From Lachnospiraceae bacterium (GTDB lineage Bacteria; Bacillota; Clostridia; Lachnospirales; Lachnospiraceae), in the NCBI GenBank assembly GCA_017465475.1, contig JAFTWC010000039.1, forward strand, positions 49,697 through 113,696: a DNA stretch of 64,000 nucleotides. Direction: 5' to 3'. This document shows, one piece after another, positions 7,555 through 56,503 of the stretch. The notes beneath the pieces were generated by a model. That model was not told the origin of the DNA and did not search any database. It worked only from the letters and a program-made list of their open reading frames with translations. The number at the start of each line of letters is the position of its first letter. Position 1 is the first letter of the stretch. Made by a program: the position numbers and the translations under genes.

Positions 7555-8592
7555 CTATCTCAACTTTAACGGTCTGGTTATCTCGCACCCACTAACATTT
7601 TTAGCCCCTATAGCAATACACTCACCTATCTTCAAACCTTCTAATACCTTGCGCCAATATGATACACGCTTTGGGTCAATTGACTTTGCAACTTCCTGTA
7701 TTTCCGCATCAGTCGGCTTAAAAATTAAATGTGTAGCTGACTGCATCAACATAACAACAACATCTTTAGGAAATATATTGAGAGTCTGTGTACTCAATAT
7801 TACCCCTAAGCCAAAACGTCTACCCTCACGTAAAATAGTACGAATAGTGGATGCGTTCCCGAGTTTAAAGTGTTGAAACTCATCGATAACAATGGTTACT
7901 CTTCCCCACTCTTTAGGAATCCCAATGTTAAAAACCATTCGCCACAGATAACCAACAACAATCTCCGAAACTAATTCTGCTGCTCGTGGCTCCAATCCTT
8001 TCAAATCAATAATATTTACCATGCCGCCAAGAATTTTCTTAGTCCCGTTGCGAAATACACGAGAATGTAACACCGTCCAAAGTTTTTGATATACTTCCTG
8101 TCGTTTAATGTCTCGCTCATCAGATTCGAACGCCATGATAAGTGCTTCTGTTTCATCGCACCCCAACCTTTTTTGAATCTGAATAGCTTCACCTATTACT
8201 GTTCGCAGAGCTGCTTGTTGCCGAACCCCTAAAGATAATCCTGAACCTAACAGCGTTACATTACTGGATATAACATTAAACAAAGACTCTGTTTTCCCGT
8301 CATAACTGATAGGCTCTAAAAGGTGAAGATTTAATCCCATTTCAACGCCGTCAATACGATTAACCCGATTACAATATCTTTCCTTTATTGATGAAAGCAA
8401 ATACGCCTCCTGATGATTCTGGCTCGTATCTATACAGATTATGGTATCCCCTTTTTCCGCTGCATCCAACTCTATGATATTTTCTCTGCAAGATTTTCCT
8501 TCGCCAGACCTCCCCGTAATAATCACCGATTTATTTGGAGCCGTGTTCCCAATATAACAATTTACTCCTTCATCAACGCTACCGATGTACAT
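7555..8592 (-). CDS. HerA/VirB4-like P-loop ATPase
   Basis: 345 residues from the ATG at 8592, chosen for its AAAGGGGGCG RBS. Walker A GRSGEGKS at residues 27-34; Walker B VTIVIDEFQHF near 236; a sensor-like STQTLN follows. This is the DUF87/HerA-FtsK arrangement of hexameric DNA-pumping ATPases, found in conjugation coupling proteins (TraG/VirD4, VirB4) and HerA repair enzymes. There are no transmembrane segments, so it is not a typical VirD4. It overlaps the upstream gene by 31 nt, showing tight operon coupling. It could move DNA during mobilization; this is inference. Confidence 0.75.
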   Translation of the reverse strand: MYIGSVDEGVNCYIGNTAPNKSVIITGRSGEGKSCRENIIELDAAEKGDTIICIDTSQNHQEAYLLSSIKERYCNRVNRIDGVEMGLNLHLLEPISYDGKTESLFNVISSNVTLLGSGLSLGVRQQAALRTVIGEAIQIQKRLGCDETEALIMAFESDERDIKRQEVYQKLWTVLHSRVFRNGTKKILGGMVNIIDLKGLEPRAAELVSEIVVGYLWRMVFNIGIPKEWGRVTIVIDEFQHFKLGNASTIRTILREGRRFGLGVILSTQTLNIFPKDVVVMLMQSATHLIFKPTDAEIQEVAKSIDPKRVSYWRKVLEGLKIGECIAIGAKNVSGCEITRPLKLR

Positions 8593-11228: not shown

Positions 11229-11726
11229 TTACGCTTCTCTTTTTTGTTTCTTTCCTTTGGATTTATCCTGTTGTGCTGTCAGTTCCAAATCCCCCAAAAG
11301 CATGTCAGTAAAAACATTCATTCTATCTACAACTTTTTTATCATCGGTTTCTTTTGTAATAAAAATAATCAAATCATAAAATTCATCATAAATCTGCTGA
11401 TTTGCAAATATTGCCAATCTTGCTTTGAATGAATTAAGCTGTATCTTTTGCTCACGAGAAAGTGAAAATCTATTATTCGGTATGTCTACCGAATAAGAAA
11501 ACATTGGTACGAAACCAATTAGTTCAGAATACAATTTTTCTTTTTCCATATATCGGTGCTGCACAATCTCGTTCTCAGACTGAGTTTTCACCACATCAAT
11601 GTTATTCTTCGCCGCAATACGGCTCTGAATGATAGAGCCGACAAAACCAATAACTCCACCAACAATAACGCCGAGAAAGGTCATCAGAACACTATTATCA
11701 TACCACACCTCAACAACTCCATTCAT
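11229..11726 (-). CDS. Membrane-anchored protein of unknown function
   Basis: 165 residues from the ATG at 11726 (GGAGGAATGAT RBS); a longer frame to 11807 lacks an RBS. One transmembrane helix near residues 12-34 (VLMTFLGVIVGGVIGFVGSI) is followed by a basic, coiled-coil-prone cytosolic region (AAKNNIDVVKTQSENEIVQH) and a Lys-rich tail. Similar one-TM proteins are common in integrative elements; no function is known to me. It is a single-gene transcript with its own terminator. Confidence 0.7.
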   Translation of the reverse strand: MNGVVEVWYDNSVLMTFLGVIVGGVIGFVGSIIQSRIAAKNNIDVVKTQSENEIVQHRYMEKEKLYSELIGFVPMFSYSVDIPNNRFSLSREQKIQLNSFKARLAIFANQQIYDEFYDLIIFITKETDDKKVVDRMNVFTDMLLGDLELTAQQDKSKGKKQKREA

Positions 11727-16742: not shown

Positions 16743-16884
16743 ATACTCATCTCCTGTTCGCTTTGACAATATAAAACTACAGTTTCTCCAATGACTACTA
16801 TACCTTAAATCCATGCGATTGACAATATACCTCTAAAAATTCTAGTACTAATAATATACCTATTCCTTGAAAATCATTTGAAGC

Positions 16885-39059: not shown

Positions 39060-39899
39060 ATGAAAACAGTAAAAGAAGTATCGGAAATCACAGGAGTAAG
39101 CATTCGTACCCTACGTTATTATGACGAAATCGGTTTGCTTCCTCCCACAACAATCACAGAAGCAGGCTATCGCTTATACGACCAATATGCCTTGGAAAAG
39201 CTGCAGGAAATTCTTTTTTTCAAAGAACTGGAACTTCCGCTGAATGAAATCAGGGATATGATGAATCGCCCCGACTACAACAAGCAACAAGCTCTTGCTA
39301 CCCAAAAGCATCTGTTGGAATGTAAGCGAAATCGTCTGAACGGGATCATTGAATTAATATCAGATGTTATGAAGGGAGTCAATACCATGAGTTTTGGAGC
39401 ATTTAGTAAAGAAGAAGTAGAACAAATCGTAGACCACACATTACGCCATATGAATCCGGAGGCTTTGGCTGAGCAAATCGAGCAATTCGGAGGAGAAGAG
39501 GCTTACAAGAATTATCTTTCCAAAGGCTTTGAAAACGAAAAAGCCTCTGCCGAATTAATCAAATGGTACGGCAGCAAAGAAAAGGCCTTGCAAGCGGTGT
39601 TAGAAACACCGGACATCCCGGAACCAACCGCCTCTGCCGCAGACACCGAACTGATTTACCGGCAATTTGCACAGGCAAAGGAAAGCAACAACACCGCCCT
39701 TGCCGCTGATGCCGTAGAGAAGCTGGCAGACCACTATAAAACCATGTTCCACTTAGATAATGCACGAAATATCCTCTTGGATTTGGCAAAGGAATATGCC
39801 AAAGAGGATGTCCTTGCAAATGCTACCGACGCACAGTATGGAGAAGGTGTTTCTGCTTTTATTGCAAATACCATTCAATATTACTATGGTGCTATATAA
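39060..39899 (+). CDS. MerR-family regulator with TipAS-like ligand domain
   Basis: 279 residues, RBS AAAGGAG. The MerR winged helix (VKEVSEITGVSIRTLRYYDEIGLLPP) and dimerisation coil (60-110) are followed by a helical TipAS-type domain (about 140-279, ANTIQYYYG end). TipAS-type regulators bind thiopeptide or other hydrophobic antibiotics and activate transcription by DNA untwisting. Own 19-bp-spacer promoter. Confidence 0.88.
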   Translation: MKTVKEVSEITGVSIRTLRYYDEIGLLPPTTITEAGYRLYDQYALEKLQEILFFKELELPLNEIRDMMNRPDYNKQQALATQKHLLECKRNRLNGIIELISDVMKGVNTMSFGAFSKEEVEQIVDHTLRHMNPEALAEQIEQFGGEEAYKNYLSKGFENEKASAELIKWYGSKEKALQAVLETPDIPEPTASAADTELIYRQFAQAKESNNTALAADAVEKLADHYKTMFHLDNARNILLDLAKEYAKEDVLANATDAQYGEGVSAFIANTIQYYYGAI

Positions 39900-39981: not shown

Positions 39982-40539
39982 ATGGACGATACACAAATTG
40001 TGGATTTATACTGGGCACGCAAGGAATGTGCTATTGACGAAACCGCAGCAAAATACGGTTCTTATTGTCATTCCATTGCTGAAAACATTTTACACAATCC
40101 CGACGATGCCAAGGAGTGCGTCAACGACACCTGGCTTGACGCCTGGAACAGCATGCCGCCACACCGCCCGTCTGTGCTGTCCACCTTTCTCGGAAAGCTC
40201 ACAAGACGTATCTCCATTGACAAATGGAGGCAGCGAAACGCAAAGAAACGCGGCGACGGACAACTCCCCCTGGTTCTTGACGAACTGGAGGATTGTATCT
40301 CCGACGGAAAAAGCATAGAGGAGGAAGCAGAACGAAAACTCCTTCGCGAAGTAATTGCTTCTTTTGTAAAAACGCTCCCGGAAACAGAACAAAAGGTGTT
40401 CCTATGCCGGTACTGGTACATGGACTCCGTAAACTCCATTGCCACCCGGTTCCGTTTTTCCGAAAGCAAAGTGAAGTCCATGCTTTACAGAACCCGTGAA
40501 AAGCTCCGTATCCGCTTAGAACAGGAGGGTTTGGTATGA
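39982..40539 (+). CDS. ECF-type RNA polymerase sigma factor
   Basis: 185 residues, RBS GGGAGG. Region 2 (YCHSIAENILHNPDDAKECVNDTWLDAWNSMPP) and region 4 (LPETEQKVFLCRYWYMDSVNSIATRFRFSESKVKSMLYRTREKL) are both present. The stop overlaps the ATG of the next gene (ATGA), as usual for sigma/anti-sigma pairs. Confidence 0.92.
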   Translation: MDDTQIVDLYWARKECAIDETAAKYGSYCHSIAENILHNPDDAKECVNDTWLDAWNSMPPHRPSVLSTFLGKLTRRISIDKWRQRNAKKRGDGQLPLVLDELEDCISDGKSIEEEAERKLLREVIASFVKTLPETEQKVFLCRYWYMDSVNSIATRFRFSESKVKSMLYRTREKLRIRLEQEGLV

Positions 40540-41831
40540 ATACTGACGATATTTTAGATGCACTGAACGAGGTAGACGATACTTGTATTAAAAACGCAAG
40601 AACACCAAAGAAAAAAGGACACAAGGCACTGTGGATTTCCACCGGTGCCGTAGCTGCGGCCTGTCTTTTGGTGGCACTACGGTTTTCTTTCTCCCTCCGG
40701 CAGACACCACCGAACAAACACATCCACCACGATGGATATTGCGATTGTCCGGACTGTCAAATCACGCCTACACCGGCAATCGGACAGAAAAGTTCCCTGG
40801 GAATCGCCTACAAAAACGACTTCCGACAGCGGAACGGTTCAGGCCTATATAGTCCTGAGTCTATGATTACATGGCCGTGGGAATATATTTTTATTTGCGA
40901 CCAATACCCGACTGTGGAATACAACGACATAACTTATCGTTCCCGTACCTCCTACACAGGAAACGCCGTATCCGAATCATGGATAGGGGCGAAAATTGCG
41001 GATACCGCAGCCAGGGGCGGATATGCTCCGGAACCGGCCTCCTACGCATACTCCATGGCCTGCGAACTGTTTGAGATAAAAGGCATTTCCACCGACCGGT
41101 TCCTGGCTGTCAAATACGAGGGTCACGAGGAATACTATGTCTTTATGCAAGATACGTTTAATCCTCCTGCCACCCTGGGCGATTTGATTACGGACTTAAG
41201 CCTCACCGAGACCTTTCCGCTTACATCTCTCTATTATGAGTCGGAATGTTACAGCTTATCCGAGACCGACAGTGATGCCTTATGGGAACTGTTTTTAACC
41301 CATGCCAACTGTAGCACCATTACCACTGATTTTGCCGAAGAACAGCTTTCTCTCGGAAAGAATGTAATGTCTTTCACCATAAATGCAGAAGCTCTTGGCA
41401 TATATAACAACGCATGGTCTCTTACCTCCGGCGGCTATCTGCGCACTAATATTGAAGATTACGGCTATTATTATAACCTGGGAAAAGATGCGGTAAAGGA
41501 AATCATGGACTTCGCAGAATCTCACAAAAAGGCCGCTCCTCCGAAGCAGGAGTTCACCATAATGGGGGAAGTCACCGAGATTACCGACACTTATATCAAG
41601 GTGGATGACACTGTTTTCATGGAACACCCGGAAGTAGGAGTGGAATTTACGGTGGAATTAAACGACCTACGGTTAGAACGTTATGTAGCCTGCGACAGAT
41701 TGCAGGTAGGTGACTACGTATTGATTTCTCATACCGGTTCGGATGCCGCTAACCCGACTCACATTGTCACCGCATACGATTTACGTATCGGTTACATTGA
41801 TGACACCGGCACAATATATATTCCTATGTAA
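40536..41831 (+). CDS. Membrane-bound anti-sigma-like protein
   Basis: 431 residues. An N-terminal cytosolic segment (DDILDALNEVDDTCIKNA) of the kind that holds ECF factors, one TM helix at about 33-50 (ALWISTGAVAAACLLVAL) and a large outer domain ending in an OB-like stretch (VACDRLQVGDYVLISH). Cys residues in DGYCDCPDCQI could bind metal or form a disulphide. It overlaps the sigma gene by 4 nt and presumably sequesters it until an envelope signal is received; family inference. Confidence 0.7.
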   Translation: MNTDDILDALNEVDDTCIKNARTPKKKGHKALWISTGAVAAACLLVALRFSFSLRQTPPNKHIHHDGYCDCPDCQITPTPAIGQKSSLGIAYKNDFRQRNGSGLYSPESMITWPWEYIFICDQYPTVEYNDITYRSRTSYTGNAVSESWIGAKIADTAARGGYAPEPASYAYSMACELFEIKGISTDRFLAVKYEGHEEYYVFMQDTFNPPATLGDLITDLSLTETFPLTSLYYESECYSLSETDSDALWELFLTHANCSTITTDFAEEQLSLGKNVMSFTINAEALGIYNNAWSLTSGGYLRTNIEDYGYYYNLGKDAVKEIMDFAESHKKAAPPKQEFTIMGEVTEITDTYIKVDDTVFMEHPEVGVEFTVELNDLRLERYVACDRLQVGDYVLISHTGSDAANPTHIVTAYDLRIGYIDDTGTIYIPM

Positions 41832-45687: not shown

Positions 45688-45716
45688 AAAACTTTTTTAT
45701 CAGGAAACGGTACTAT
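45688..45716 (+). promoter_or_regulatory. Shared-motif promoter P1 (sigma-fusion gene)
   Basis: AAAAC (45688-45692), 19 nt, ACTAT (45712-45716) followed by CTAACAG. First of four copies with identical spacing; suggests autoregulation. Confidence 0.7.
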
Positions 45717-45761
45717 CTAACAGCAGAAGAAATTCTGACTAAATGAAAAGGCGGACTGATT

Positions 45762-48755
45762 ATGGCAGCAGAAAAAGAATTGTTACGAGGCATTGCCCTC
45801 ATGAAGGAAGGAAAGGAAGAGGGATTTAATATCCTTTATTCCCACACCTACAATTTTGTCTACGCACGTGCACGGGCGGCTACAAAAACCGAGGCCGATG
45901 CACAGGACTTGACCCAGGAAACCTTTCTCCTGGCTTACAAAGGAATCGCTTCTTTGGAGGATGCCAACCATGTCTATGCCTGGTTAGGAGGTATCGTGTT
46001 CCGACAAGGCGCAAAACTTCACCATAAGACGGAACGAGAATCGTTAGTGGATGAAGACCAGGAATTCATTTTTGACAATATCGAAACAAAAGATGTAGAT
46101 TCCCTTCCGGAGGAAAGTGCGCAGTTAAAAGCCACTTCCGATGTAGTCATGTCCATGATTGAGGAATTACCGGAATTGCAACGTTCCGCCATTGTTTCCT
46201 TCTATTATGACCACATGAAACTGGAAGAAATCGCATCGATTTTCGACTGTTCCGTCAACACCATTAAAAGCCGTTTAAACTATGCAAAAAAGTTCTTAAA
46301 GGAGCGGGTAGAAGAACATCAGCTTCGCTACAATTACAAGCTTTTCTCCTTCTCTCCTGCCGTTTTACTTTTGGCACTCAGAGAGCTTATGGATTCCGAA
46401 AAATATACCCTGGCACCGGAATCCGCAGAAAAACTGTACCGTGTAGCCTGTGACTCTTTAGGTATTACAGCCTCTGCTTTGGCTACCGGTGCTGCTGTAG
46501 GTTCCGCTGCCACTGCTGCCACTACCGCATCTGCCACGGTGTCTGCTTCTGCGGCATCCACTGCCGCTACCGCAGCAAAAACTGTAGGCGCCATCGGAAA
46601 GTTTGCCGCTTATTCCGTAGCAAAAAAAGTAGGCGTCATCGCATTATCCGTCTCACTTTTAGCCGGAACCGTGACTACTGCAGTTCTACTGTCCAATCAA
46701 AAGGAAACTCCGGTGGTGGAACTGGCAGACAGCACCCCTACACCTCTTCCGACAGAAACTCCGATGCCGGAACCGACGGAAGTTCCAAGTCCGACTCCGG
46801 AACCAAGTCCGGAACCGACTCCGACTCCGGAAGTAGTACGCCATTCTGCCGACACCATGCGGGAGTACTATGAACTTTTGGGTGCGTTGGCGAAAACCGG
46901 TGTAGACGAAGTTACGGTAGCTCTCCATAGCTTTGCCCTTACAGAAGGACATATCCTAAATGACGTACCGGAATTACAGCGCTACGCGGGGATAAATGTA
47001 TCGTTAACAGCAACCGAAACCGGGACCTACCAGGTTAATCCGCTGTACTCTCTGATTCAGATAAAGTTTACTTACGGCGAAACAGAAATTGCAGCATATA
47101 GCAGCGAAGATTACTGGGACAAGATAAAGAAAGCGACAGAAAAGCAATTAGAAAAGTTTACGGTCTATTACTATCCAAAGAGTAGCTACGAATGGACTTT
47201 AACTCGTATTACTTATGTAGGCACCTTTTATCTTCCGGACGATTTTCCGTCAAATGCCGTTATCAAAAGAAATGTTTGTGCCACTACGCGCACACACAAA
47301 GGTGCGTTTGTCTCCGATACCTATGAGGTTATGTATATTGATAACAACGACGTCCGAATCAGTCATAATGATTATGCCAAGACAGCTATAACCGAATGGT
47401 ATGAAGGCGATAGAAATCCCGAGGTAACTTTTTATATCCGTTCTCAACTTTATACTGACGCCAACGGCCAGGAATATACAAATGACACAGCATACTATAA
47501 AAACTGGTTTTCCTCCACGTATCCTGACTCGGAATATCAATTAGAAGAGATTCTCACGGACGGAAAACCGATTTCCGATTTCTACGTTGCATTTGTCATT
47601 AAAAAAGCGGGAGAATCACTTCCACCTTCGGCTCCTATTGCACCAGCCAAAGAATCTGTTTCTTTGGCTCCTGTTGCTACGCCGAACCCTTCTCCTTCCT
47701 TAAAATACGACACCACGCTTGATGTCACTACTTTATCAAAAAACATTGTAAAGAACATTATCCACCCGGGAATGTCGGATTTAGAGAAAGTAAAAGCCAT
47801 TCACGACTATTTGGTCATGCACGTGGATTTAGATATTAAAAATACCGTTTCCGATACTCCTGTACCGGAAAGTACCACTGCCGTCGGTGCCCTCAGCATC
47901 GGATATGCAACTGCTTCCGGATACGCCGATGCCTTTAATCTCTTGTGTAAGGAAACCGGACTTGAAAGTTCTTCTGTCTCCGGAACCTATAAACCACTAC
48001 AAGGAAAATCACTTATTTGGCAACATGTTTGGAATCAAGTCCAAGTGGACGGACAATGGTACCATATAGATGTGGCAGCAGACGATCCTTTCAGTTCTCT
48101 GAAAGAATTTAGCGACCATTCCAAATGCTCTTATCAATACTTTTTAATAAACGACCAAGGAATCAATGCGTTCCAACACGTCATTTCCTCATCGGCACAC
48201 CCATGTACAGAAGAGTCGGTGTCTTATGACGCATCAAAATACGGTTGTCCATGGGAAACCATAGGATGGAATCCCACCTTGGAAGAAGTGGTTTCCCTTA
48301 CAGAGGAGGCCTGTAAGAAAGGCTATTCCGGCATAACACTTATCTATACAGAGGAGCTTGGCGATAACTTTGACATTTACTATGCTATAGATGAGGGACT
48401 CTGCAAACAATTGTATACTATTGACAAAGCCCACTCACGCGAACAAAGCCTCTTGTGGATTCCAAAAAGAATTTACTATGCTTATTATTTTCCGTTCGTA
48501 ACTGTGGATGGAACTCTGACTCCATGTTCTGTTTTAGATTCCGAGAAACATATTTCGACTGTATTGAATAACATCCTAAAAAACAAAAGGAGAAAGACAT
48601 TTGCTTATGCACCGGACAAAGCACTTGTTGAGAATGTAATACGTTCCTATCCTTTACCGGAAAATGTTACTTTACAATACCTCTTCTATGATATTGCCAA
48701 CACAACCTTTGTTGAAATCTTTTATGATCAAACTGACGGTGTAACTTTTCCGTAA
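45762..48755 (+). CDS. Membrane-tethered ECF sigma factor fused to an outer transglutaminase-like domain
   Basis: 997 residues in one frame; weak AAAGGCGG box. Residues 1-185 are an ECF sigma factor: region 2 (ADAQDLTQETFLLAYKGIASL) and region 4 (LPELQRSAIVSFYYDHMKLEEIASIFDCSVNTIKSRLNYAKKFL in parts). An Ala/Thr-rich linker leads to a TM helix at about 288-310 (VIALSVSLLAGTVTTAVLLS), a Pro-Thr stalk, and an outer region ending in a transglutaminase-like fold (about 640-800) with HVWNQVQVDGQWYHIDVAADDP. The catalytic Cys position reads Ala718 (ASGYADAF), so the fold is probably a binding sensor. Release by proteolysis is inferred. Confidence 0.8.
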   Translation: MAAEKELLRGIALMKEGKEEGFNILYSHTYNFVYARARAATKTEADAQDLTQETFLLAYKGIASLEDANHVYAWLGGIVFRQGAKLHHKTERESLVDEDQEFIFDNIETKDVDSLPEESAQLKATSDVVMSMIEELPELQRSAIVSFYYDHMKLEEIASIFDCSVNTIKSRLNYAKKFLKERVEEHQLRYNYKLFSFSPAVLLLALRELMDSEKYTLAPESAEKLYRVACDSLGITASALATGAAVGSAATAATTASATVSASAASTAATAAKTVGAIGKFAAYSVAKKVGVIALSVSLLAGTVTTAVLLSNQKETPVVELADSTPTPLPTETPMPEPTEVPSPTPEPSPEPTPTPEVVRHSADTMREYYELLGALAKTGVDEVTVALHSFALTEGHILNDVPELQRYAGINVSLTATETGTYQVNPLYSLIQIKFTYGETEIAAYSSEDYWDKIKKATEKQLEKFTVYYYPKSSYEWTLTRITYVGTFYLPDDFPSNAVIKRNVCATTRTHKGAFVSDTYEVMYIDNNDVRISHNDYAKTAITEWYEGDRNPEVTFYIRSQLYTDANGQEYTNDTAYYKNWFSSTYPDSEYQLEEILTDGKPISDFYVAFVIKKAGESLPPSAPIAPAKESVSLAPVATPNPSPSLKYDTTLDVTTLSKNIVKNIIHPGMSDLEKVKAIHDYLVMHVDLDIKNTVSDTPVPESTTAVGALSIGYATASGYADAFNLLCKETGLESSSVSGTYKPLQGKSLIWQHVWNQVQVDGQWYHIDVAADDPFSSLKEFSDHSKCSYQYFLINDQGINAFQHVISSSAHPCTEESVSYDASKYGCPWETIGWNPTLEEVVSLTEEACKKGYSGITLIYTEELGDNFDIYYAIDEGLCKQLYTIDKAHSREQSLLWIPKRIYYAYYFPFVTVDGTLTPCSVLDSEKHISTVLNNILKNKRRKTFAYAPDKALVENVIRSYPLPENVTLQYLFYDIANTTFVEIFYDQTDGVTFP

Positions 48756-48761
48756 CAAAAT

Positions 48762-48790
48762 AAAACCTTTTCCTTTGTCGGAGGAACTAT
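48762..48790 (+). promoter_or_regulatory. Shared-motif promoter P2 (small gene)
   Basis: AAAAC (48762-48766), 19 nt, ACTAT (48786-48790) followed by ATAACAGAAC. Confidence 0.7.
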
Positions 48791-48835
48791 ATAACAGAAC
48801 GCTAACAGTATCACCCCGACAAAGGAGGAAGTTTT

Positions 48836-49153
48836 ATGGACAAGAACTCAACCTACGAACAATTGCTTCAACCGTTACGCGCCACCCTTCCCATTGCGGA
48901 ACTGTATGACTTTGACCGGATTAAGGATCGGATTCGTACCGTCTTCCTGCAACGTCCAACCGGAGGGCACCCGGCAAACACACTTCCGCAGATTCCCATG
49001 GAGATTTCGGATTTAACAGGGATCTTCTTGGTGGAATTATATTCCGACCGGGAGTTTACCGTGGGATATCATATTACCCACCAGCATTTGGCACTATGGA
49101 ATATGACGGAGCAGGAGCTTTTAAAAACTCTGATACAGTCTTCCGATACTTAG
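48836..49153 (+). CDS. Small cytosolic protein with DUF5688-like segment
   Basis: 105 residues, RBS AAAGGAGGAAG. No signal or TM. The C-terminal half (GYHITHQHLALWNMTEQELLKTLIQ) resembles the middle of DUF5688 proteins (compare FQAWGITEDELFEIA in the gene at 25723). Function unknown. It has its own shared-motif promoter and its own terminator. Confidence 0.65.
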   Translation: MDKNSTYEQLLQPLRATLPIAELYDFDRIKDRIRTVFLQRPTGGHPANTLPQIPMEISDLTGIFLVELYSDREFTVGYHITHQHLALWNMTEQELLKTLIQSSDT

Positions 49154-49165
49154 TGTAAACAAATA

Positions 49166-49223
49166 AGGCTGTCACCATTACGAAGTACCGACACTATGTC
49201 AGACCTCGTAATTGCGACAGCCT
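49166..49223. terminator. Bidirectional terminator
   Basis: AGGCTGTC (49166-49173) with GACAGCCT (49216-49223), extended inside by ATTACGA (49177-49183)/TCGTAAT (49206-49212). Confidence 0.75.
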
Positions 49224-49249
49224 CTTTCATTTCTTACCTACACTTCACT

Positions 49250-49465
49250 CTACTTCTTTTCCGGCTCATCAGGAGCATATTTGATAATCTTTGTCACATC
49301 ACACTCCAACACCTGACACAACCAGTTCAAGGTATTCAATGTAACATTCTGATTATGCATGAGACTATTCAATGTCCCGCGACTGAGTCCATACGTATTA
49401 ATCAACTTATACTTCGAAATATTCTTTTCCTTTAGGGTTTCCCATAACGGTTCAAATGTAATCAT
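49250..49465 (-). CDS. Small Cro/CI-type helix-turn-helix protein
   Basis: 71 residues; YozG-like one-domain regulator (YKLINTYGLSRGTLNSLMHNQNVTLNTLNWLCQVLECDVTKI). It is the only minus-strand gene inside the shared-promoter region and could modulate it; unproven. An AGGAGTGATG box precedes the ATG. Confidence 0.85.
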   Translation of the reverse strand: MITFEPLWETLKEKNISKYKLINTYGLSRGTLNSLMHNQNVTLNTLNWLCQVLECDVTKIIKYAPDEPEKK

Positions 49466-49628
49466 CTCATCACTCCTTTCTTTTCTTATTATAAAGTGTT
49501 CCCGTCTTCTTGAAAATTACCGTTTTGCCGTGATTGTCGGCTTGACGATATTGTCGGTATAGTGGTAATATATATCTAATAAACATCGTATTGAAAGAAA
49601 ACTTTTTGAAAAAAATTTTGTTTTTTAT

Positions 49629-49657
49629 AAAACTTTTCCTGTTTTAATCGGAACTAT
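49629..49657 (+). promoter_or_regulatory. Shared-motif promoter P3 (AAA+ operon)
   Basis: AAAAC (49629-49633), 19 nt, ACTAT (49653-49657) followed by ACAGTAGAAC. Confidence 0.7.
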
Positions 49658-49688
49658 ACAGTAGAACATAAGAAAAGAGGTATTCTAT

Positions 49689-52562
49689 ATGGGATTATTA
49701 GACTTGATTCATGGACTGGTCATCGGTAACGACCCGTCCATCAGCGACGCATTTTTACAGGATAACATTCCGGCAGCCAACCAACAGGCAAGCGGTTCCA
49801 AACCACAGCCGACTCCGGTACAACCTGTGACACCTACACCGCCGAAGGAGCCTGCCCCGACGCCTGTCACACCAAAACCGGTCGTTCAACCGGAACCGAT
49901 GTCGGCTCCGCAAGCAACTCCGGTTCCGCAACCGGCACCGGCTCCTGCAGAGCCTCCGCTTATTATCCCGCCGCTCCCGGGGACAAATTCCGGCCCCAAT
50001 ACCATGTTTAGTTTCGACTTTCCGGAACTACTGGCCCGGGCCAAAAACGGTGACAGCGGCTTTGCAATTATGGTGGCAAGAGATTACTCGGACCGTTGCC
50101 CGGAGGAACATTGTTCCGACGACGCTGTCTATTGGATGTATGAAGCCTTTCGGAATTCCAATGCTCCCACCATTAATTTCATAAATTCCGCCATTACCTT
50201 GGGACGATGGTACACGTTAGGATTCCATGTTCCGGTCGACTATAACCGCGCTTTGGACTTCTTTGAACAGGCAGCTTCCCGCGGCAGCGAAACGGTACTT
50301 CCTTACATTAAAGAACTGCGGGAAGTAGTTGCACTCCAAAACAATCCGGAGCTTATCTATTTGGACCTGGTACAACTATTTGAAAAACTGGAACTTGCGG
50401 AACAAGAAGAAAAAGAAATTGTAACACTTTTTTATTCCAGAGAAATCATGAAAAAAGATCCGGGGCTTGGCTTTTCCCTTTACGGCGAATACATATTTTC
50501 CTGGAAACCTCTTGATTTTGAGGACCGCAACAATGACTTTGCCAGAGCATGCTTTCTCCGGGCCAAAAAACTCGGATATACCGATGTGGCATTATCCATT
50601 GCAAAATCCTATGAAGACGACTCCGTCTATGCCGGCAACCTGCCGCAATTACGACGTTGGGCAGAATTAGCCATCGAGCAAAACGAAGAGGGCGCACAGG
50701 AGTTCTTCGATGAAATGAAAGAAGCGGTAGAAGATTCTTACATTTTCATAGATGAATGGGAATCCGATGAGCCATTAATCGAGCAAGAATATCCCGACTG
50801 GTTTCTGGCCGGTATCTTTCAAACAGAGCTGCCAAAAACCGTGACCACCGGAGACAGCCGGACTTCAAACACCCCGATTTCGGAAGAACATACCGACCCG
50901 CGGGAACTTCCGGAAAATATCGATGGCTACTTTGAAGGCTTTATCGGTATGACCCATGTGAAAGAGCAGCTTCAAAAAATATACAATGCGGTAAAACTCC
51001 AGCAACGCAGAGACGAAATTCTGCGTCAAAGAGGGGAAGAACCGGCGCCGAATGACAAAGGCTTTAACTTCATTCTTTTGGGAAACCCGGGCACCGGTAA
51101 AACCTCCGTTGCCAGAATCATTGCAAAGATTCTGTACGACTTAAACATCCGGGAAAAAGACATTCTCTTGGAGGTGGAACGGTCCAAGTTGGTAGGGGAA
51201 CATATCGGAAGTACGGAAAACCGCATGCGGGCTGTGTTGGACAGCGTACAGGGCGGCACCCTTTTCATCGACGAAGCCTATACCTTATACAAGGAAGATT
51301 CCGACAACGATTTCGGTCAGGAAGCCATTGACGTACTCATGAAAGACATGGAAGACCACAGAAATTCCTACTCCGTCATTATGGCAGGGTACAAACAGCC
51401 CATGCTTACTATGATTAAAAATGCCAACAGCGGATTCTCTTCCCGATTTACTTATCAGATTGAGATTCCGGACTATACGGAAGAGGAACTGATTGAAATC
51501 GCTCACATTCACATTGACAAGTTGAAATATCAGATGGATGACGGTGTGGACGATGCCATCCGCAAATGCATCCGCCACGATAAAATCGACGACACCTTCG
51601 GCAATGCCCGCTACGCAAGAGAGTTGGTAAACCGTGCTGTTGAAAATCAGGCTACCAGGCTGAATGCATTGGAACACGCCACCGACGATGATTTGTTCCT
51701 GTTAACCGCAGCCGACTTTTGGGAAGGAACCATGGAAGAGGAGACGGTGGAAAGCCTCTTAAAAGAACTGGATTCCATGGTGGGACTGGCTTCCGTAAAG
51801 GAGGAGGTGAAAACCCTGATAAACCGAATTACAGTTATGACAGAAATGGAAAAGCGGGGCCTTGCCCTGTCAGGAGACTTCGGAACATTACACATGGCAT
51901 TTAAAGGAAACCCTGGCACCGGCAAAACCACCGTGGCAAGACTTTTAGGAAAACTATATGCCGCTCTCGGTATTTTAAAACGAAATGATGTGTTTGTGGA
52001 ATGTAATCGGGCCGGCCTGGTGGGAAAATACCAGGGACATACCGCTGCCAACGTGGAAAAGGTAGTACAATCCGCACTGAGCGGCATTCTTTTCATCGAC
52101 GAAGCCTATTCCCTGGTACAGGGCGAGGGCGACAGCTTCGGAAAAGAAGCGGTGGATACCTTAGTGGCAGAAATCGAGAACCACAGAAAAAATCTGGTGG
52201 TTATCTTTGCCGGCTACAGCGATGACATGGACCGGTTCTTTGAAAACAATCAGGGATTAAAAAGCCGTGTTCCGCTTTCCCTTACATTTGAGGATTACAA
52301 TGAAGAAGAACTGTTTGCCATTGCTGCCGGTATGATTGAAAGCCGACACTTAAAACTGGCAGAAGATGCCGCTTTGCCACTCACTCAACTGATTCGTACT
52401 AAATCCCACGAACAGGACTTCGGCAATGCCAGAGGCATCCGCAACCTGGTAGACGGCTTTATAAGACAACAAAACGTACGCATTGCAAAAGCATTAGGCA
52501 CCGATGCTTCCTCCGTAACCGATGAGGCATTGATTACCCTTATGAAAGAAGACATTTACTAA
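49689..52562 (+). CDS. Double AAA+ ATPase of the CbxX/SpoVK/EccA type with Sel1-like N-terminus
   Basis: 957 residues, RBS AAAAGAGG. N-terminal short segment, Pro-rich stretch (30-100), Sel1/TPR-like helices (115-330; DAVYWMYEAFRNSN, DYNRALDFFEQAASRGSE), then two CbxX-type AAA+ domains with Walker A GNPGTGKT near residues 464 and 741 and Walker B TLFIDEAYTLY and ILFIDEAYSLV. The RVPLSLTFEDYNEEEL sensor region is typical. Relatives remodel Rubisco (CbxX), act in sporulation (SpoVK) or with type VII secretion (EccA). First gene of a four-gene operon. Confidence 0.85.
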   Translation: MGLLDLIHGLVIGNDPSISDAFLQDNIPAANQQASGSKPQPTPVQPVTPTPPKEPAPTPVTPKPVVQPEPMSAPQATPVPQPAPAPAEPPLIIPPLPGTNSGPNTMFSFDFPELLARAKNGDSGFAIMVARDYSDRCPEEHCSDDAVYWMYEAFRNSNAPTINFINSAITLGRWYTLGFHVPVDYNRALDFFEQAASRGSETVLPYIKELREVVALQNNPELIYLDLVQLFEKLELAEQEEKEIVTLFYSREIMKKDPGLGFSLYGEYIFSWKPLDFEDRNNDFARACFLRAKKLGYTDVALSIAKSYEDDSVYAGNLPQLRRWAELAIEQNEEGAQEFFDEMKEAVEDSYIFIDEWESDEPLIEQEYPDWFLAGIFQTELPKTVTTGDSRTSNTPISEEHTDPRELPENIDGYFEGFIGMTHVKEQLQKIYNAVKLQQRRDEILRQRGEEPAPNDKGFNFILLGNPGTGKTSVARIIAKILYDLNIREKDILLEVERSKLVGEHIGSTENRMRAVLDSVQGGTLFIDEAYTLYKEDSDNDFGQEAIDVLMKDMEDHRNSYSVIMAGYKQPMLTMIKNANSGFSSRFTYQIEIPDYTEEELIEIAHIHIDKLKYQMDDGVDDAIRKCIRHDKIDDTFGNARYARELVNRAVENQATRLNALEHATDDDLFLLTAADFWEGTMEEETVESLLKELDSMVGLASVKEEVKTLINRITVMTEMEKRGLALSGDFGTLHMAFKGNPGTGKTTVARLLGKLYAALGILKRNDVFVECNRAGLVGKYQGHTAANVEKVVQSALSGILFIDEAYSLVQGEGDSFGKEAVDTLVAEIENHRKNLVVIFAGYSDDMDRFFENNQGLKSRVPLSLTFEDYNEEELFAIAAGMIESRHLKLAEDAALPLTQLIRTKSHEQDFGNARGIRNLVDGFIRQQNVRIAKALGTDASSVTDEALITLMKEDIY

Positions 52563-52585
52563 ACATACGACAGGAGGATTTTATT

Positions 52586-53191
52586 ATGGAAAATCAAACC
52601 CTTTTTCCTGACCAGATTAGCAGAGATCGTTTTTTACAGGACATGGAAGCCGCAAGACCTCACTTAGACGCCTTCACCACCGCTTCCACCCAAATTGCAT
52701 CCTATAACGATGCCATCAACAAGCAGGTAGCTGAACTGGACAACCTATCCCCCATAGAACGCTTAAAAACCATGAAATGGTTTTTACTGGCCATTCCGGT
52801 GCTCTATCTTCTTGCAGATCTTTGGATTGACTCCGGCTTAAAAGACGGCGGAACCCCCAATCCCATTGCCGTTGCCTTCGGCCTTGCTGTTTACGGTTAC
52901 ATGGGGCTTTGCATCATCCTTTGGTTTAAGTGCCAACATTTGTACCGCTATACAAAGGACTACAAACTTCAGCTTGCAGAAATCGAAGCAAAGCGGGAAG
53001 AGCAGAAAAAAATTATGGTAATAAAGAAAAACGAAGAAGAAAAGGTAATGCAACATATCAGTTACGTCCCGAGCAAATACCTGTGTGCTAAAACCTTATA
53101 CAAGTTAGAAGCCTTTATGCGTAACAACGGTGCAACCAATCTGGCACAAGCCATCAATATGTACGACCTTTATCGTCAGAATAACCACTAA
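52586..53191 (+). CDS. Membrane protein of the AAA+ operon
   Basis: 201 residues, RBS GGAGGA. Helices near 70-90 (WFLLAIPVLYLLADLWI) and 100-125 (IAVAFGLAVYGYMGLCIILWF) flanked by long charged helical arms. No family recognised. 24 nt after the AAA+ gene. Confidence 0.7.
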   Translation: MENQTLFPDQISRDRFLQDMEAARPHLDAFTTASTQIASYNDAINKQVAELDNLSPIERLKTMKWFLLAIPVLYLLADLWIDSGLKDGGTPNPIAVAFGLAVYGYMGLCIILWFKCQHLYRYTKDYKLQLAEIEAKREEQKKIMVIKKNEEEKVMQHISYVPSKYLCAKTLYKLEAFMRNNGATNLAQAINMYDLYRQNNH

Positions 53192-53203
53192 GGAGGCATT
53201 TTT

Positions 53204-54361
53204 ATGAACGAATTTTATGATCGCATTTATAAATCTATGGCAAAAAAAGAAAAGGAACAGTTAAATAAAACCGCAGGAAATATTATCCTCACTCCCCGGA
53301 TGTTAAAAATCTACCGAACCCGCGGAAAAGATTTTACTATGGATATTATTTCCCTACTCCCTACCCTGTTACTTCTTTTCTTTTTATGGTTTATCCAGTA
53401 CTCGGCAATGGAAACTTTGGAGAAAATGGAAGCTTCCGATTTTATCACTTATTTGGTGAGCGGAGTACTTTTCCTCTGGATTGCCTCCTGCCTTATTCTT
53501 TATTGCATAGATGTAAAGGCTTTGGAATGTTATTTTATCGGCTACAATAAGTCATCCTACTTTTTGTCCACCGGCACAAGACAAAAGCAGATTCGCTCCG
53601 ATAAAGGATTGATCGGTGAGTTCAAATCCTATATACTCAGTCGCACCTTAACCGTACCTCATAAAGTGTTATACAATGTCTGCGTTCCAATGGACAACGG
53701 AAATTTCCAGGAAATCGACAGCATCATCATTACCCGTCGTATGATTTATGTAATGGAGTGCAAAAACATGGAAGGTGAATTTATCGGCTCCTATGACGAT
53801 GAAGAATGGACCCAGATTATCGGAAGTAAGCAACACAAAAAGAAAAATGTATACCTGCAGAACCAGTTGCACACCATGGCATTGGATAAGTTCCTTTTAG
53901 ACCGGGGCATCATTCAAAACGGCCAAAATGTATGTATTAATATGGCGCTGATTTCCGGTAGCATTAAGTTTCCTCAGACCAACATTCCCATGGATTTCCG
54001 CTACGGTACCATGAACAAGCTATCCTCTTTTATTAACACCTACGACAAGCAGTACAGTAGTCAGGTAGAAGGAAACGGCCTTTTAGACACTGCTTACGAA
54101 GCACTTCTTCCGTATGCACTGTACACCGACGAAGAGCGCAAAGCCATGATGGCAGAGCGGGATATCAGAAAAGAATCCGGTGAGTTTACAAAAGGTGTCT
54201 TCCGTGAAGTAACAATTGAGGGCGGTATTCCGGGAATTACTCCGCCGGACAAAATCACCTTACTCCGTTACAACAATTTATACACACAGATTCAGATTTC
54301 CGACGGACGGTCCACCTGCTGGCAAACCAGAACCGATATTCCGGACGAATACTTACAATAA
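53204..54361 (+). CDS. NERD-domain membrane protein
   Basis: 385 residues, RBS AAGGAGG. Two TM helices near 47-66 and 84-105, then a NERD (nuclease-related) domain at about 150-275: VLYNVCVPMDNGNFQEIDSIIITRRMIYVMECKNMEGEFIGS in order gives the D...ExK-type core (Asp in EIDSI, ECKN). NERD domains are related to restriction-endonuclease folds and occur in signalling and defence proteins. Membrane-anchored, active side probably cytosolic. Confidence 0.8.
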   Translation: MNEFYDRIYKSMAKKEKEQLNKTAGNIILTPRMLKIYRTRGKDFTMDIISLLPTLLLLFFLWFIQYSAMETLEKMEASDFITYLVSGVLFLWIASCLILYCIDVKALECYFIGYNKSSYFLSTGTRQKQIRSDKGLIGEFKSYILSRTLTVPHKVLYNVCVPMDNGNFQEIDSIIITRRMIYVMECKNMEGEFIGSYDDEEWTQIIGSKQHKKKNVYLQNQLHTMALDKFLLDRGIIQNGQNVCINMALISGSIKFPQTNIPMDFRYGTMNKLSSFINTYDKQYSSQVEGNGLLDTAYEALLPYALYTDEERKAMMAERDIRKESGEFTKGVFREVTIEGGIPGITPPDKITLLRYNNLYTQIQISDGRSTCWQTRTDIPDEYLQ

Positions 54362-54374
54362 AGGAGGTATTTTT

Positions 54375-54542
54375 ATGAACTACAACAACGTGAATCATAT
54401 TTCAAAAGGTGTCAGCGAACAAAGAGTACAGGAATTTAAAGCAAAGTATCAGGAGCAAAAGCCCCTTCTTCTTTATAAAATTGTTTGGATTACATTTCTT
54501 GTCTGCTCCATTTCTGCTGTGTGGGTATTAGCTAATATCTAA
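54375..54542 (+). CDS. Small single-TM protein
   Basis: 55 residues from the ATG at 54375 (AAGGAGG box). Soluble N-terminus then one TM helix (LLLYKIVWITFLVCSISAVW). Last gene of the AAA+ operon, before a terminator. Confidence 0.65.
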   Translation: MNYNNVNHISKGVSEQRVQEFKAKYQEQKPLLLYKIVWITFLVCSISAVWVLANI

Positions 54543-54560
54543 CGACAAATCACCCCTTAG

Positions 54561-54604
54561 AGGCTGCCGCATTTTCCAAAAAAAAGAAGTTGCGACAGCC
54601 TTTT
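54561..54604 (+). terminator. Terminator of the AAA+ operon
   Basis: GGCTG-C-CGCA (54562-54571) with TGCG-A-CAGCC (54591-54600) then TTTT. Confidence 0.7.
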
Positions 54605-54634
54605 AAAAAAGTTTAAAAAAATTTTCAAATTTAT

Positions 54635-54663
54635 AAAACCTTTTTTGATTTAAACAGAACTAT
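54635..54663 (+). promoter_or_regulatory. Shared-motif promoter P4 (lipoprotein gene)
   Basis: AAAAC (54635-54639), 19 nt, ACTAT (54659-54663) followed by ATAACAGAAG. Confidence 0.7.
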
Positions 54664-54718
54664 ATAACAGAAGGGATGAAAACATCCCCAAAAAACTTAC
54701 AAAAAAGGAGATAAAATT

Positions 54719-55333
54719 ATGAAGAAAAGAACACTTATTTTAGCAGCAATGGTAACCTTATGTATCGTATTCGCCGCTTGCGGCGGCAAAACCACCGAAA
54801 CCTCCTCCGGAACCGAAACCAGTAAAGCGGAAACCACCAAGGAAAGTAACGACAGTAAGAAAAAAATCGTTCCGGAAGAAGAAATCGTTGTCCGCGTAGG
54901 TGACGTGGAAATCCCGCTTGCCTCCACCTGGACCGAATTATTCACTTTGGCATACGAACAGGGATGGGACGTGGATGATTCCCTCTATCCGAACGAAGCA
55001 GAAAAAAAATTCAGCAAAAAAGGGCATCTCTACACCCCACAGGGAGAAGTTTTAGTTTCTCTGATGGCAAATGAAGACAAGACTGAAGCAGTTGTGGAAT
55101 ACATTGCACTTTCTCCGTTCTACATGGAATCTGACGATGCCGACATCCTCGGTGTCAAAACAGACACTTCCGTAAAGAAAATCGGAAAATCCTTTGAACT
55201 CATAGAATCCGATGAAGAGACTTATTTCTATAAGGTGGACGACTTCGTTACCTTAAAAGTAAAGTTAAACACCGATGACGGCAAAAACACCGTAAGCGCC
55301 ATTCGAACCAAATACTACAACCGCGAAGAGTAA
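54719..55333 (+). CDS. Lipoprotein of unknown function
   Basis: 204 residues, RBS AAAGGAG. Signal peptide with lipobox FAAC at about 17-20, a Thr/Ser/Lys-rich linker, and a compact outer domain (VRVGDVEIPLASTWTELFTLAYEQGWDVDD in parts) of a type common in Clostridia. Probably co-regulated with the AAA+ operon through promoter P4 and possibly co-transcribed with the next gene. Confidence 0.7.
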   Translation: MKKRTLILAAMVTLCIVFAACGGKTTETSSGTETSKAETTKESNDSKKKIVPEEEIVVRVGDVEIPLASTWTELFTLAYEQGWDVDDSLYPNEAEKKFSKKGHLYTPQGEVLVSLMANEDKTEAVVEYIALSPFYMESDDADILGVKTDTSVKKIGKSFELIESDEETYFYKVDDFVTLKVKLNTDDGKNTVSAIRTKYYNREE

Positions 55334-55387: not shown

Positions 55388-56503
55388 ATGAAGAAAACCT
55401 TTTTATCCACCGTAACACTGTTTGCTTTTCTTATACTTTTCGCAGGTTGTAACACAATTTCTGCCGTAAAGGAACCTCACAAAACGGATAAAACAACACT
55501 GACAGAGAGTCCGGTGACAACCGGCTCTGCGGTTACAGCGGATCCTTTGGAGTCCACCAAGGTCCCGGCTCCTGCTTCGGAACCGACGGCCACTCCGGAA
55601 CCGACTCCTACCCCGGAACCGACTCCTACTCCCGAGCCGACTCCTACCCCGGAACCGACTCCTACTCCGGAACCGACTCCTACTCCCGAACCGACTCCTA
55701 CCCCGGAACCGACTCCTACTCCCGAGCCAACTCCTACTCCCGAGCCGACTCCTACTCCGAAACCAACGGCCACGCCAAAGCCGACCCCTACTCCGAAACC
55801 GACTTACACAATTACGGAGTTAGAAAAAACTATGTATGCCAAATCCACGGTTAATGTCAGGGATTTGCCTTCCACCGACGGAGCAAAACTCGGTTCTTTA
55901 TCCAAAAATGACGAGGTCTCCGTCACAGGACAATGTAAGGAAACCGGTTGGTATCAGATTGTTTATAAGAAAAAAACTGCGTACGTCTGCAATGATTATC
56001 TCGTGGACAATCTGCCGACCCCTGCCGCGCCATGGGCATCTTGGGAACCTTCCCCGGACGCAGAATATGCCGTCATTCCTATTGTAGGTGCAGAAGAACC
56101 GGGCGTAGAAGAAACCTATTATATTTTCCCGGTATTCGGAACGCTGGACCGGACTTTGGCTATAGAAACCTTTGACTATGCAAACCAAATCCGAAAAGAA
56201 CACGGATTACAAGAACTGGTTTGGGATGAAATGTTATATGAATGTGCAAGGATCCGTTCCGGTGAATCCAGCGTGTATTTTTCACATACAAGACCCATGG
56301 GTACTGACTGTTTTTCGATTTATGACCAATTACACGGCGAAAACCTGGCCAGCAATTATAACTCCGCGAAATCCGTTGTAGATGCCTGGATGACCTCCGA
56401 AGGCCATCGGGCAAATATCTTAAGACCGGAATACACACGAGGTGCTGTGGGCGTTTTCCAAACAACCAACGGTTGGTTTTACTGCCAGCTTTTCGGGTTT
56501 TAA
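55388..56503 (+). CDS. Lipoprotein with SH3b and CAP domains
   Basis: 371 residues, RBS AAAGGAGG. Lipobox LFAGC, a long EPTPTP stalk, a bacterial SH3 domain (about 155-210; STVNVRDLPSTDGAKLGSL, GWYQIVYKKKTAYVCNDYL), and a C-terminal CAP/SCP domain (DYANQIRKEHGLQELVWDEML, FSHTRP, HGENLASNY, WMTSEGHRANIL). CAP proteins are secreted and bind lipids or act at the surface. It follows the lipoprotein gene by 54 nt. Confidence 0.88.
   Translation: MKKTFLSTVTLFAFLILFAGCNTISAVKEPHKTDKTTLTESPVTTGSAVTADPLESTKVPAPASEPTATPEPTPTPEPTPTPEPTPTPEPTPTPEPTPTPEPTPTPEPTPTPEPTPTPEPTPTPKPTATPKPTPTPKPTYTITELEKTMYAKSTVNVRDLPSTDGAKLGSLSKNDEVSVTGQCKETGWYQIVYKKKTAYVCNDYLVDNLPTPAAPWASWEPSPDAEYAVIPIVGAEEPGVEETYYIFPVFGTLDRTLAIETFDYANQIRKEHGLQELVWDEMLYECARIRSGESSVYFSHTRPMGTDCFSIYDQLHGENLASNYNSAKSVVDAWMTSEGHRANILRPEYTRGAVGVFQTTNGWFYCQLFGF
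55580..55804 (+). repeat. 18-bp tandem repeat encoding EPTPTP
   Basis: One EPTATP unit, nine EPTPTP units (55598-55759), then KPTATP/KPTPTP units. A slippage-prone stalk spanning the cell wall. Confidence 0.9.

Follow-up and report, generated by a model that had tools for sequence, protein, structure and literature searches.

The locus studied here raises the question of which factor reads a two-part motif, AAAAC-N19-ACTAT, that stands upstream of four genes, one of which encodes a sigma factor fused to a membrane part. It lies in a 64,000 nt stretch of Lachnospiraceae bacterium GCA_017465475.1 (contig JAFTWC010000039.1, positions 49,697 to 113,696, forward strand), which is called the window throughout and in which coordinates are counted. 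Our answer, to which we give a probability of roughly four in five, is that the four sites are extracytoplasmic function (ECF)-type promoters and that the protein encoded at 45762-48755 reads them through its sigma domain; most likely, the fused sigma factor switches on its own gene and the neighbouring genes. An earlier, sequence-only reading of the window had proposed ECF-type promoters, autoregulation and a local regulon driven by a tethered, fused sigma factor. This is supported by the co-occurrence of the motif with orthologues of the sigma gene, by an AAC-N18 spacing peak upstream of homologous sigma genes and by the co-variation of the −10 element with one residue of the sigma factor, from which we infer the role of the fused protein as driver. 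The sigma gene and the four predicted promoters (P1-P4) are the following.

45688..45723, + strand: P1, predicted promoter of the sigma fusion; exact motif AAAACTTTTTT...GTACTATCTAACAG
45762..48755, + strand: fused sigma factor, 997 aa (Pfam, hydropathy, AF2 model, Foldseek, alignment to 9crn)
48762..48797, + strand: P2; exact motif AAAACCTTTTCC...GAACTATATAACAG
49629..49664, + strand: P3; exact motif AAAACTTTTCC...GAACTATACAGTAG
54635..54670, + strand: P4; exact motif AAAACCTTTTTT...GAACTATATAACAG

Read directly from the sequence, AAAAC-N19-ACTAT begins at 45688, 48762, 49629 and 54635, just where it had first been reported; ACTAT is separated from the start codon by 45, 45, 31 and 55 nt, respectively, and a purine-rich stretch precedes each start. 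The window holds five matches to AAAAC-N19-ACTAT against 0.28 expected, a number that none of 100 shuffles reaches; the fifth, at 16773, is devoid of both the T-run and the downstream block. On leave-one-out scoring of 127,928 window positions, each of the four sites ranks just behind the other three, with scores of 25-34 compared with 15-18 for the best remaining position. The more specific wording AAAACYTTTT-N14-ACTAT had to be given up, as it fits only three of the four sites; that at 49629 reads AAAACTTTTCC and deviates slightly, with TTTTCC and, downstream, CAGTAG. As to the ATAACAG-like sequence ascribed to three of the sites, the other three all have TAACAG, following AT in two of them and CT in the third. 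A third conserved block, ARYAG, is seen two bases past ACTAT in all four (45719-45723, 48793-48797, 49660-49664 and 54666-54670), and similar letters occupy the same place in L068 (GTCTGCTTATCAG) and in L065 (GTCTATAGAATAG), the latter being without AAC at the usual spacing.

For the search of the whole genome (3.07 Mb in 81 contigs), the 36-nt form AAAACYTTTN15ACTATNNARYAG was used. This form was derived from the four sites, so their exact fit is built in, and the real test is its emptiness elsewhere and its recurrence in other species. Eight matches were obtained at up to three mismatches: four exact, all at the locus, none with one mismatch anywhere in the genome, one with two and three with three. 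The same pattern read backwards gave 23 matches at this threshold; the loose matches are therefore what background would give, unlike the four exact ones. When an extra N made the spacing wrong, the pattern had a single exact match, away from the locus, and 33 matches at up to one mismatch versus 88 for its backward reading. The objection foreseen at the outset, that the motif might be equally frequent in unrelated sequence, thus failed at the scale of the genome.

The motif also accompanies the sigma gene across species. Among ten genomes of the genus, searched with a 312-residue query at a cut-off of 1e-15, matches of 71-100% identity over most of the query were found in the present genome (G000) and in G001 and G003, a relative of 32% identity was found in one further genome and six gave none at this cut-off. 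The motif, with at most one mismatch, is present in four, one and three copies in G000, G001 and G003, respectively, and in none of the other seven (Fisher 0.008); at two mismatches it appears in five genus genomes, which is the level of chance. The motif or a close variant precedes the organism's own sigma gene in G000, G001, G075 and G388, and a probable operon containing it in G003. Of these, G075 and G388 belong to other genera, where the sigma factors are 52 and 44% identical to that of the window: in G075 variants of the motif stand before and just after the sigma gene, and in G388 a related site stands before it. In G401, again of another genus, a site lies before a lipoprotein gene on another contig. 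An alignment of 12 sites from six genomes, chosen for having the motif, needs no gaps over the boxes; in it, AAAAC and ACT are invariant and the intervening stretch is variable. Across 396 genomes outside our own, nine motif matches were found against about 36 for the backward pattern, so the matches there are background, except for those in G388 and G401. The sigma alignment, run against named genomes in one scan, yielded ECF factors of 25-34% identity (80 loci) and no close orthologue.

Whether this motif has the geometry of an ECF promoter was judged from the regions upstream of homologous sigma genes. The set comprised 58 upstream stretches (58 homologue entries besides our own, minus G101, whose contig begins at the gene, plus G004) of up to 350 nt, some being shorter. 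AAC-N18-(GTCT/AACT/TACT) occurs in 19 of the 58 at a spacing of 18, some of these matches being due to chance given the background of one to six at every other spacing from 10 to 29 and one to seven on the reverse strands. The stricter AAC.TT-N15-GTC is found in seven of the 58, against a mean of 0.19 and a maximum of three in 300 shuffles. Because of this AAC-N18 peak, AAAAC-N19-ACTAT is read as the ECF promoter geometry with ACT replacing GTC. AAC is present in the −35 element of all four window sites and, in the alignment chosen by the motif, of all 12 sites. The CGT named for the −10 element of ECF promoters is absent, ACT standing here and GTC upstream of 11 other homologues.

The base change in the −10 element goes with a change in the protein. 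In the clade of the window protein the relevant residues are Trp74, Ile78 and Arg81, the last lying seven residues after Trp74; at the residue-81 place the 11 other entries with a GTC match have Asn (ten) or Cys (one). In SigH of Mycobacterium tuberculosis, N88 acts as a wedge that contacts the first opened base of the −10 element, and the authors suggested that it may help to set specificity there and noted Arg in some sigma factors (PMC6411747). Residue 81 appears to correspond to SigH N88, as mapped by the spacing from the conserved Trp and Ile. Among 61 entries, the 13 with the sequence [FY]RQ comprise six with an ACT match, of which G001 has in addition a GTC match lacking the T-run, and seven with no match; the other 48 comprise three with ACT (none with the T-run), 11 with GTC and 34 with none. 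When AAC.TT is required, the [FY]RQ entries give five ACT and no GTC matches and the others no ACT and seven GTC matches. Entries without a match were left out of the Fisher test on the type of −10 element.

By its domain content, the protein is an ECF sigma factor. Pfam places Sigma70_r2 at residues 25-78 and r4_2 at 129-179, and the match to TIGR02937 scores 69.2 bits against a cut-off of 42.9. ECF factors are defined as having sigma2 and sigma4 only, joined by a linker of fewer than 50 residues, the definition having later been narrowed to this sigma2/sigma4 make-up (PMC8103513); the fused protein has the sigma2/sigma4-only composition of an ECF factor (group IV of the sigma70 family). In an AF2 model of residues 1-313, sigma2 is confident (block pLDDT, the predicted local distance difference test, 88-96), sigma4 is fair to good and the region beyond 240 is poor; confidence is low for the juxtamembrane helices at 199-233, which are therefore not claimed to cover the sigma domain. 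The top Foldseek matches of this model are Escherichia coli sigmaE and other ECF chains, including SigW, and sigma2 alone superposes on 4lup at 1.7 Å. Along the 997 aa, sigma2-sigma4 is followed by a linker rich in Ala, Ser and Thr, by a single hydrophobic helix that begins at about 292 and is predicted to span the membrane, by a Pro-rich stretch and by an ectodomain, the model of which was poor (mean pLDDT 39.7) and was set aside. The ectodomain contains a transglutaminase-like domain (PF01841) at 661-770. The catalytic triad of transglutaminase-like enzymes is Cys-His-Asp. On alignment to the solved structure 9crn, His and Asp are retained and the Cys position is occupied by Ala, and because of this replacement the domain probably serves for binding and not for catalysis.

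While the cytoplasmic part is conserved, the ectodomain is not. Of the 45 pairs formed by ten clade proteins, all are similar over the first 190 residues, which are cytoplasmic, and only three are similar in the ectodomain, all of these among proteins with BspA-type repeats. In the closest relatives, whose first 190 residues are about 80% identical to those of the window protein, the ectodomain has BspA repeats (G003) or a solute-binding domain together with BspA repeats (G001); the window protein instead has the transglutaminase-like ectodomain without Cys, unrelated to either. Each of 32 proteins (the window protein, G001, G003 and the homologues with loci, some of them cut at the end of the locus) has a hydrophobic helix past residue 200 followed by 149-686 residues, the best helix in G011 being the first of two candidates. 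Fifty-three of 59 homologue entries lie in open frames of more than 350 aa; the other six, in frames of 187-234 aa, are not among the 32. An N-terminal zinc ribbon is present in two of the 32. Because the outer domain has been exchanged in evolution while the sigma part and the promoter code were kept, the fused protein may be viewed as a receptor in one piece whose sensor is interchangeable. On one contig of G338 (G338:C7:4709-22069, about 17 kb), four close copies of the fused-sigma gene occur, none with AAC-N18 upstream.

The genes that the four predicted promoters would serve, with those adjoining them, are as follows.

48836..49153, + strand: 105-aa protein with a weak partial DUF5688 match (profile 86-164 of 290; at 26.1 bits it falls short of the curated cut-off, 34.5)
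49689..52562, + strand: tandem AAA+ ATPase of the SpoVK/CbbX/EccA type with AAA_lid_6 (profile matches)
52586..53191, + strand: 201-aa protein without family match; same operon as the AAA+ gene by spacing
53204..54361, + strand: NERD-domain protein (Pfam); same operon as the AAA+ gene by spacing
54375..54542, + strand: 55-aa open reading frame behind the NERD gene, its start preceded by AAAGGAGG (sequence read)
54719..55333, + strand: lipoprotein of 204 aa, called from its N-terminus
55388..56503, + strand: SH3_3-CAP protein (Pfam), 54 nt past the lipoprotein gene

The lipoprotein and SH3_3-CAP genes are probably co-transcribed. No separate co-transcribed anti-sigma factor is seen behind the sigma gene, where the next genes are the DUF5688-like frame and the AAA+ operon, both of which have a motif of their own; in the 45762 protein, sigma and the membrane part are instead fused. 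The locus of the sister species G003 resembles the window, with an M6-type lipoprotein in front (85% identical) and kinase-like and permease genes behind (translations judged by eye). There, copies of the motif stand before a CAP gene that itself precedes the sigma gene (a probable CAP-sigma operon), before an orthologue of the 54719 lipoprotein (59% identical) and before an unlinked gene, on a further contig, for a lipoprotein with Ltp repeats. In 30 kb of G003, no relatives of the DUF5688-like, AAA+, 201-aa and NERD proteins were found, and the AAA+ protein was found in one of the ten genus genomes (E<=1e-60). Of the AAA+/NERD/lipoprotein set first proposed as the regulon, the lipoprotein is common to the window and G003, as are sigma and the CAP protein, whereas the AAA+/NERD set, with the AAA+ protein found in one genus genome, does not look like the conserved core. 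Given the 54 nt gap between the lipoprotein and CAP genes, sigma, lipoprotein and CAP protein all fall within the predicted regulon of both species, by different arrangements.

Several smaller features of the locus were noted. A 22-nt inverted repeat, 86% complementary (48760-48781 / 48816-48837), has its left arm over the P2 −35 box and its right arm over the ribosome-binding site and start codon. The leader behind P4 (54671-54689) and those of both linked G003 sites (L204, about 7828-7852 and 11287-11311) start with AAGGG and end with TCCCC, and possibly form a small hairpin at the 5′ end of the transcript. Between the DUF5688-like gene and the AAA+ operon, at about 49250-49465, the minus strand has a small open reading frame that looks helix-turn-helix-like when read by eye. 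Elsewhere in the window, a gene for an ECF sigma factor of 185 aa is followed by one for a protein with one N-terminal hydrophobic stretch (39982-41831), perhaps a conventional sigma/anti-sigma pair; matches to this sigma factor (E<=1e-15) occur in nine of the ten genus genomes, up to nine per genome.

The explanation that competes most directly is that P1-P4 are the ECF promoters of another ECF sigma factor and that the fused sigma is merely nearby. The genome does contain several other ECF-like sigma factors: the gene of one (L006, G000:C29) is preceded by an identical −35, AAACCTTTT, its upstream sequences being TGAAACCTTTT and GTATTATAAG, and another is that at 39982. However, the C29 factor has Asn at the −10 residue and GTAT rather than ACT at its own −10, and the motif accompanies the fusion gene in other genera (G075 and G388), so we consider this explanation unlikely, some of the genome's ECF sigma factors (C29 and 39982) having been compared. 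The 39982 factor was set aside as driver: its orthologues are in G001 (85%) and G005 (88%), with a best G003 relative of 55%, which does not match the distribution of the motif in G000, G001 and G003, and no AAAAC-N19-ACTAT lies upstream of it. A weak position at 39867, 115 nt before it and within the end of the preceding gene, scores 15-17 compared with 40-44 for the four sites when all four are in the model. It is highly improbable, in our estimate, that the four sites have in common an operator, bound by a DNA-binding regulator, beside a promoter of the ordinary kind. The helix-turn-helix-like frame could encode such a regulator and P2 lies within the imperfect inverted repeat, but the motif is asymmetric and two-part with a fixed spacing, as fits the AAC-N18-xxCT geometry upstream of homologous sigma genes, and in a sigma-70 scan none of the four sites was overlapped by a promoter-like match on the + strand (one minus-strand match over P2 and two + strand matches upstream of P3 were returned). 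We give almost no credence to the proposal that the four copies stem from one duplicated stretch or are a functionless similarity. All four do lie within 9 kb on one strand, and P3 and P4 share A/T-rich flanks; yet in the 12 sites, which were chosen by their boxes, the boxes are constant and the intervening stretch is not; other species have the boxes too, in one case on a contig other than that of the genome's sigma gene, and the genome has no further exact or one-mismatch match. Chance similarity of the four sites was rejected on the whole-genome search together with the leave-one-out ranking.

Other observations weigh against assigning P1-P4 to the fused sigma factor. The genome, of which 88.8% is present, has further ECF sigma factors, and the −35 of one of them is identical. 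G001 has a single site, with no lipoprotein or CAP orthologue in 32 kb, and the upstream stretch of G003 was lengthened because of the intervening CAP gene. A looser pattern applied to 24 chosen genomes gave 15 matches against 52 backwards, eight of the 15 being known sites and seven background-like. The Fisher values treat the entries as independent; the 13 [FY]RQ entries form one clade (support 100/96), so the match between −10 element and residue counts as one event and not 13. Seven of these 13 are without an upstream match (G401, G171, G011 and four G338 copies), scans of the G171 and G338 regions gave nothing convincing and the match in G151 lacks the T-run.

Fused and regulated ECF factors of several kinds are already known, and the C-terminal extensions of the ECF41, ECF42 and CorE types are known as soluble, whereas in the window protein a helix is predicted to cross the membrane. 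Those types share with it a regulatory C-terminus fused to the ECF factor (PMC8999054, PMC8103513, PMC3426412). A close likeness is to ECF52 of Streptomyces coelicolor (SCO4117), in which an ECF sigma factor is likewise continued by a C-terminal transmembrane region, a Pro-rich stretch and an extracellular domain, and one promoter of which is among those with its own putative motif (PMC5826349, PMC8999054). ECF52 differs in having a zinc finger and a carbohydrate-binding domain, in being called exclusive to Actinobacteria (PMC5826349) and in its motif, CSGYN-17bps-SRHA, which is unlike that of the window; in the window protein, Pfam finds neither a zinc finger nor a carbohydrate-binding family, and the transmembrane and Pro-rich stretches are present. 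IutY of Pseudomonas putida (ECF243) also combines sigma and a membrane-bound anti-sigma part in one protein, which is activated by proteolysis, and it is, according to a 2022 review, the only fused membrane ECF factor with experimentally characterised proteolytic activation; unlike the present protein, it serves iron-starvation cell-surface signalling with a different fused part, and the excerpt of the review does not mention exchange of outer domains (PMC8999054). An analogous way of working is seen in the SigI-RsgI systems of Clostridium thermocellum, where the outer domains of nine RsgIs sense different substrates and cleavage by RseP is followed by ClpXP (PMC12203970). There, sigma and anti-sigma are two separate proteins, whereas the window encodes a single fused protein with ECF matches. 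SigI is not known to be an ECF factor. By title or abstract, no paper on this architecture with such ectodomains was recognised, and a named group may exist in the 2021 ECF re-classification; excerpts of PMC5171806 and PMC7438776 contain no such promoter, the latter stating that the consensus sequences of three Clostridioides difficile ECF factors are still to be identified. Fused membrane ECF factors as such being known, what appears to be new is a membrane-spanning fused ECF factor without the ECF52 zinc finger, with exchanged ectodomains and an altered −10 element.

On the mechanism proposed here, the fused protein would be held inactive at the membrane until a signal acting on the outer domain led to release of the sigma part, most likely through regulated intramembrane proteolysis; IutY and the ECF52-type fusions (PMC8999054) offer precedents for this. 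Freed sigma would transcribe its own gene, providing positive feedback, and would also transcribe the small-protein gene at 48836, the AAA+/NERD operon and the lipoprotein-CAP unit. With a lipoprotein, a CAP/SH3 protein, an AAA+ ATPase and a NERD protein linked to it, the system may serve a response related to the envelope. Beyond this locus, we put forward, with belief and doubt evenly balanced, that the bacterial family possesses a broad class of one-piece transmembrane sigma receptors whose outer domains are freely replaced while sigma and promoter code are kept, each species plugging a different sensor into the same output, and that in one clade of this class ACT took the place of GTC in the −10 element along with a change of Asn to Arg at the wedge. 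Fused membrane ECF sigma factors have been little studied, and the locus offers a compact testable case, with four predicted target promoters, sister species in which the promoter is kept but the outer domain differs, and a predicted rule linking residue to base, by which Arg in place of Asn at the wedge goes with ACT in place of GTC. If this is true, exchange of the outer domain could reprogram the input of such a receptor, and the promoter code would allow its regulon to be predicted from sequence in related bacteria.

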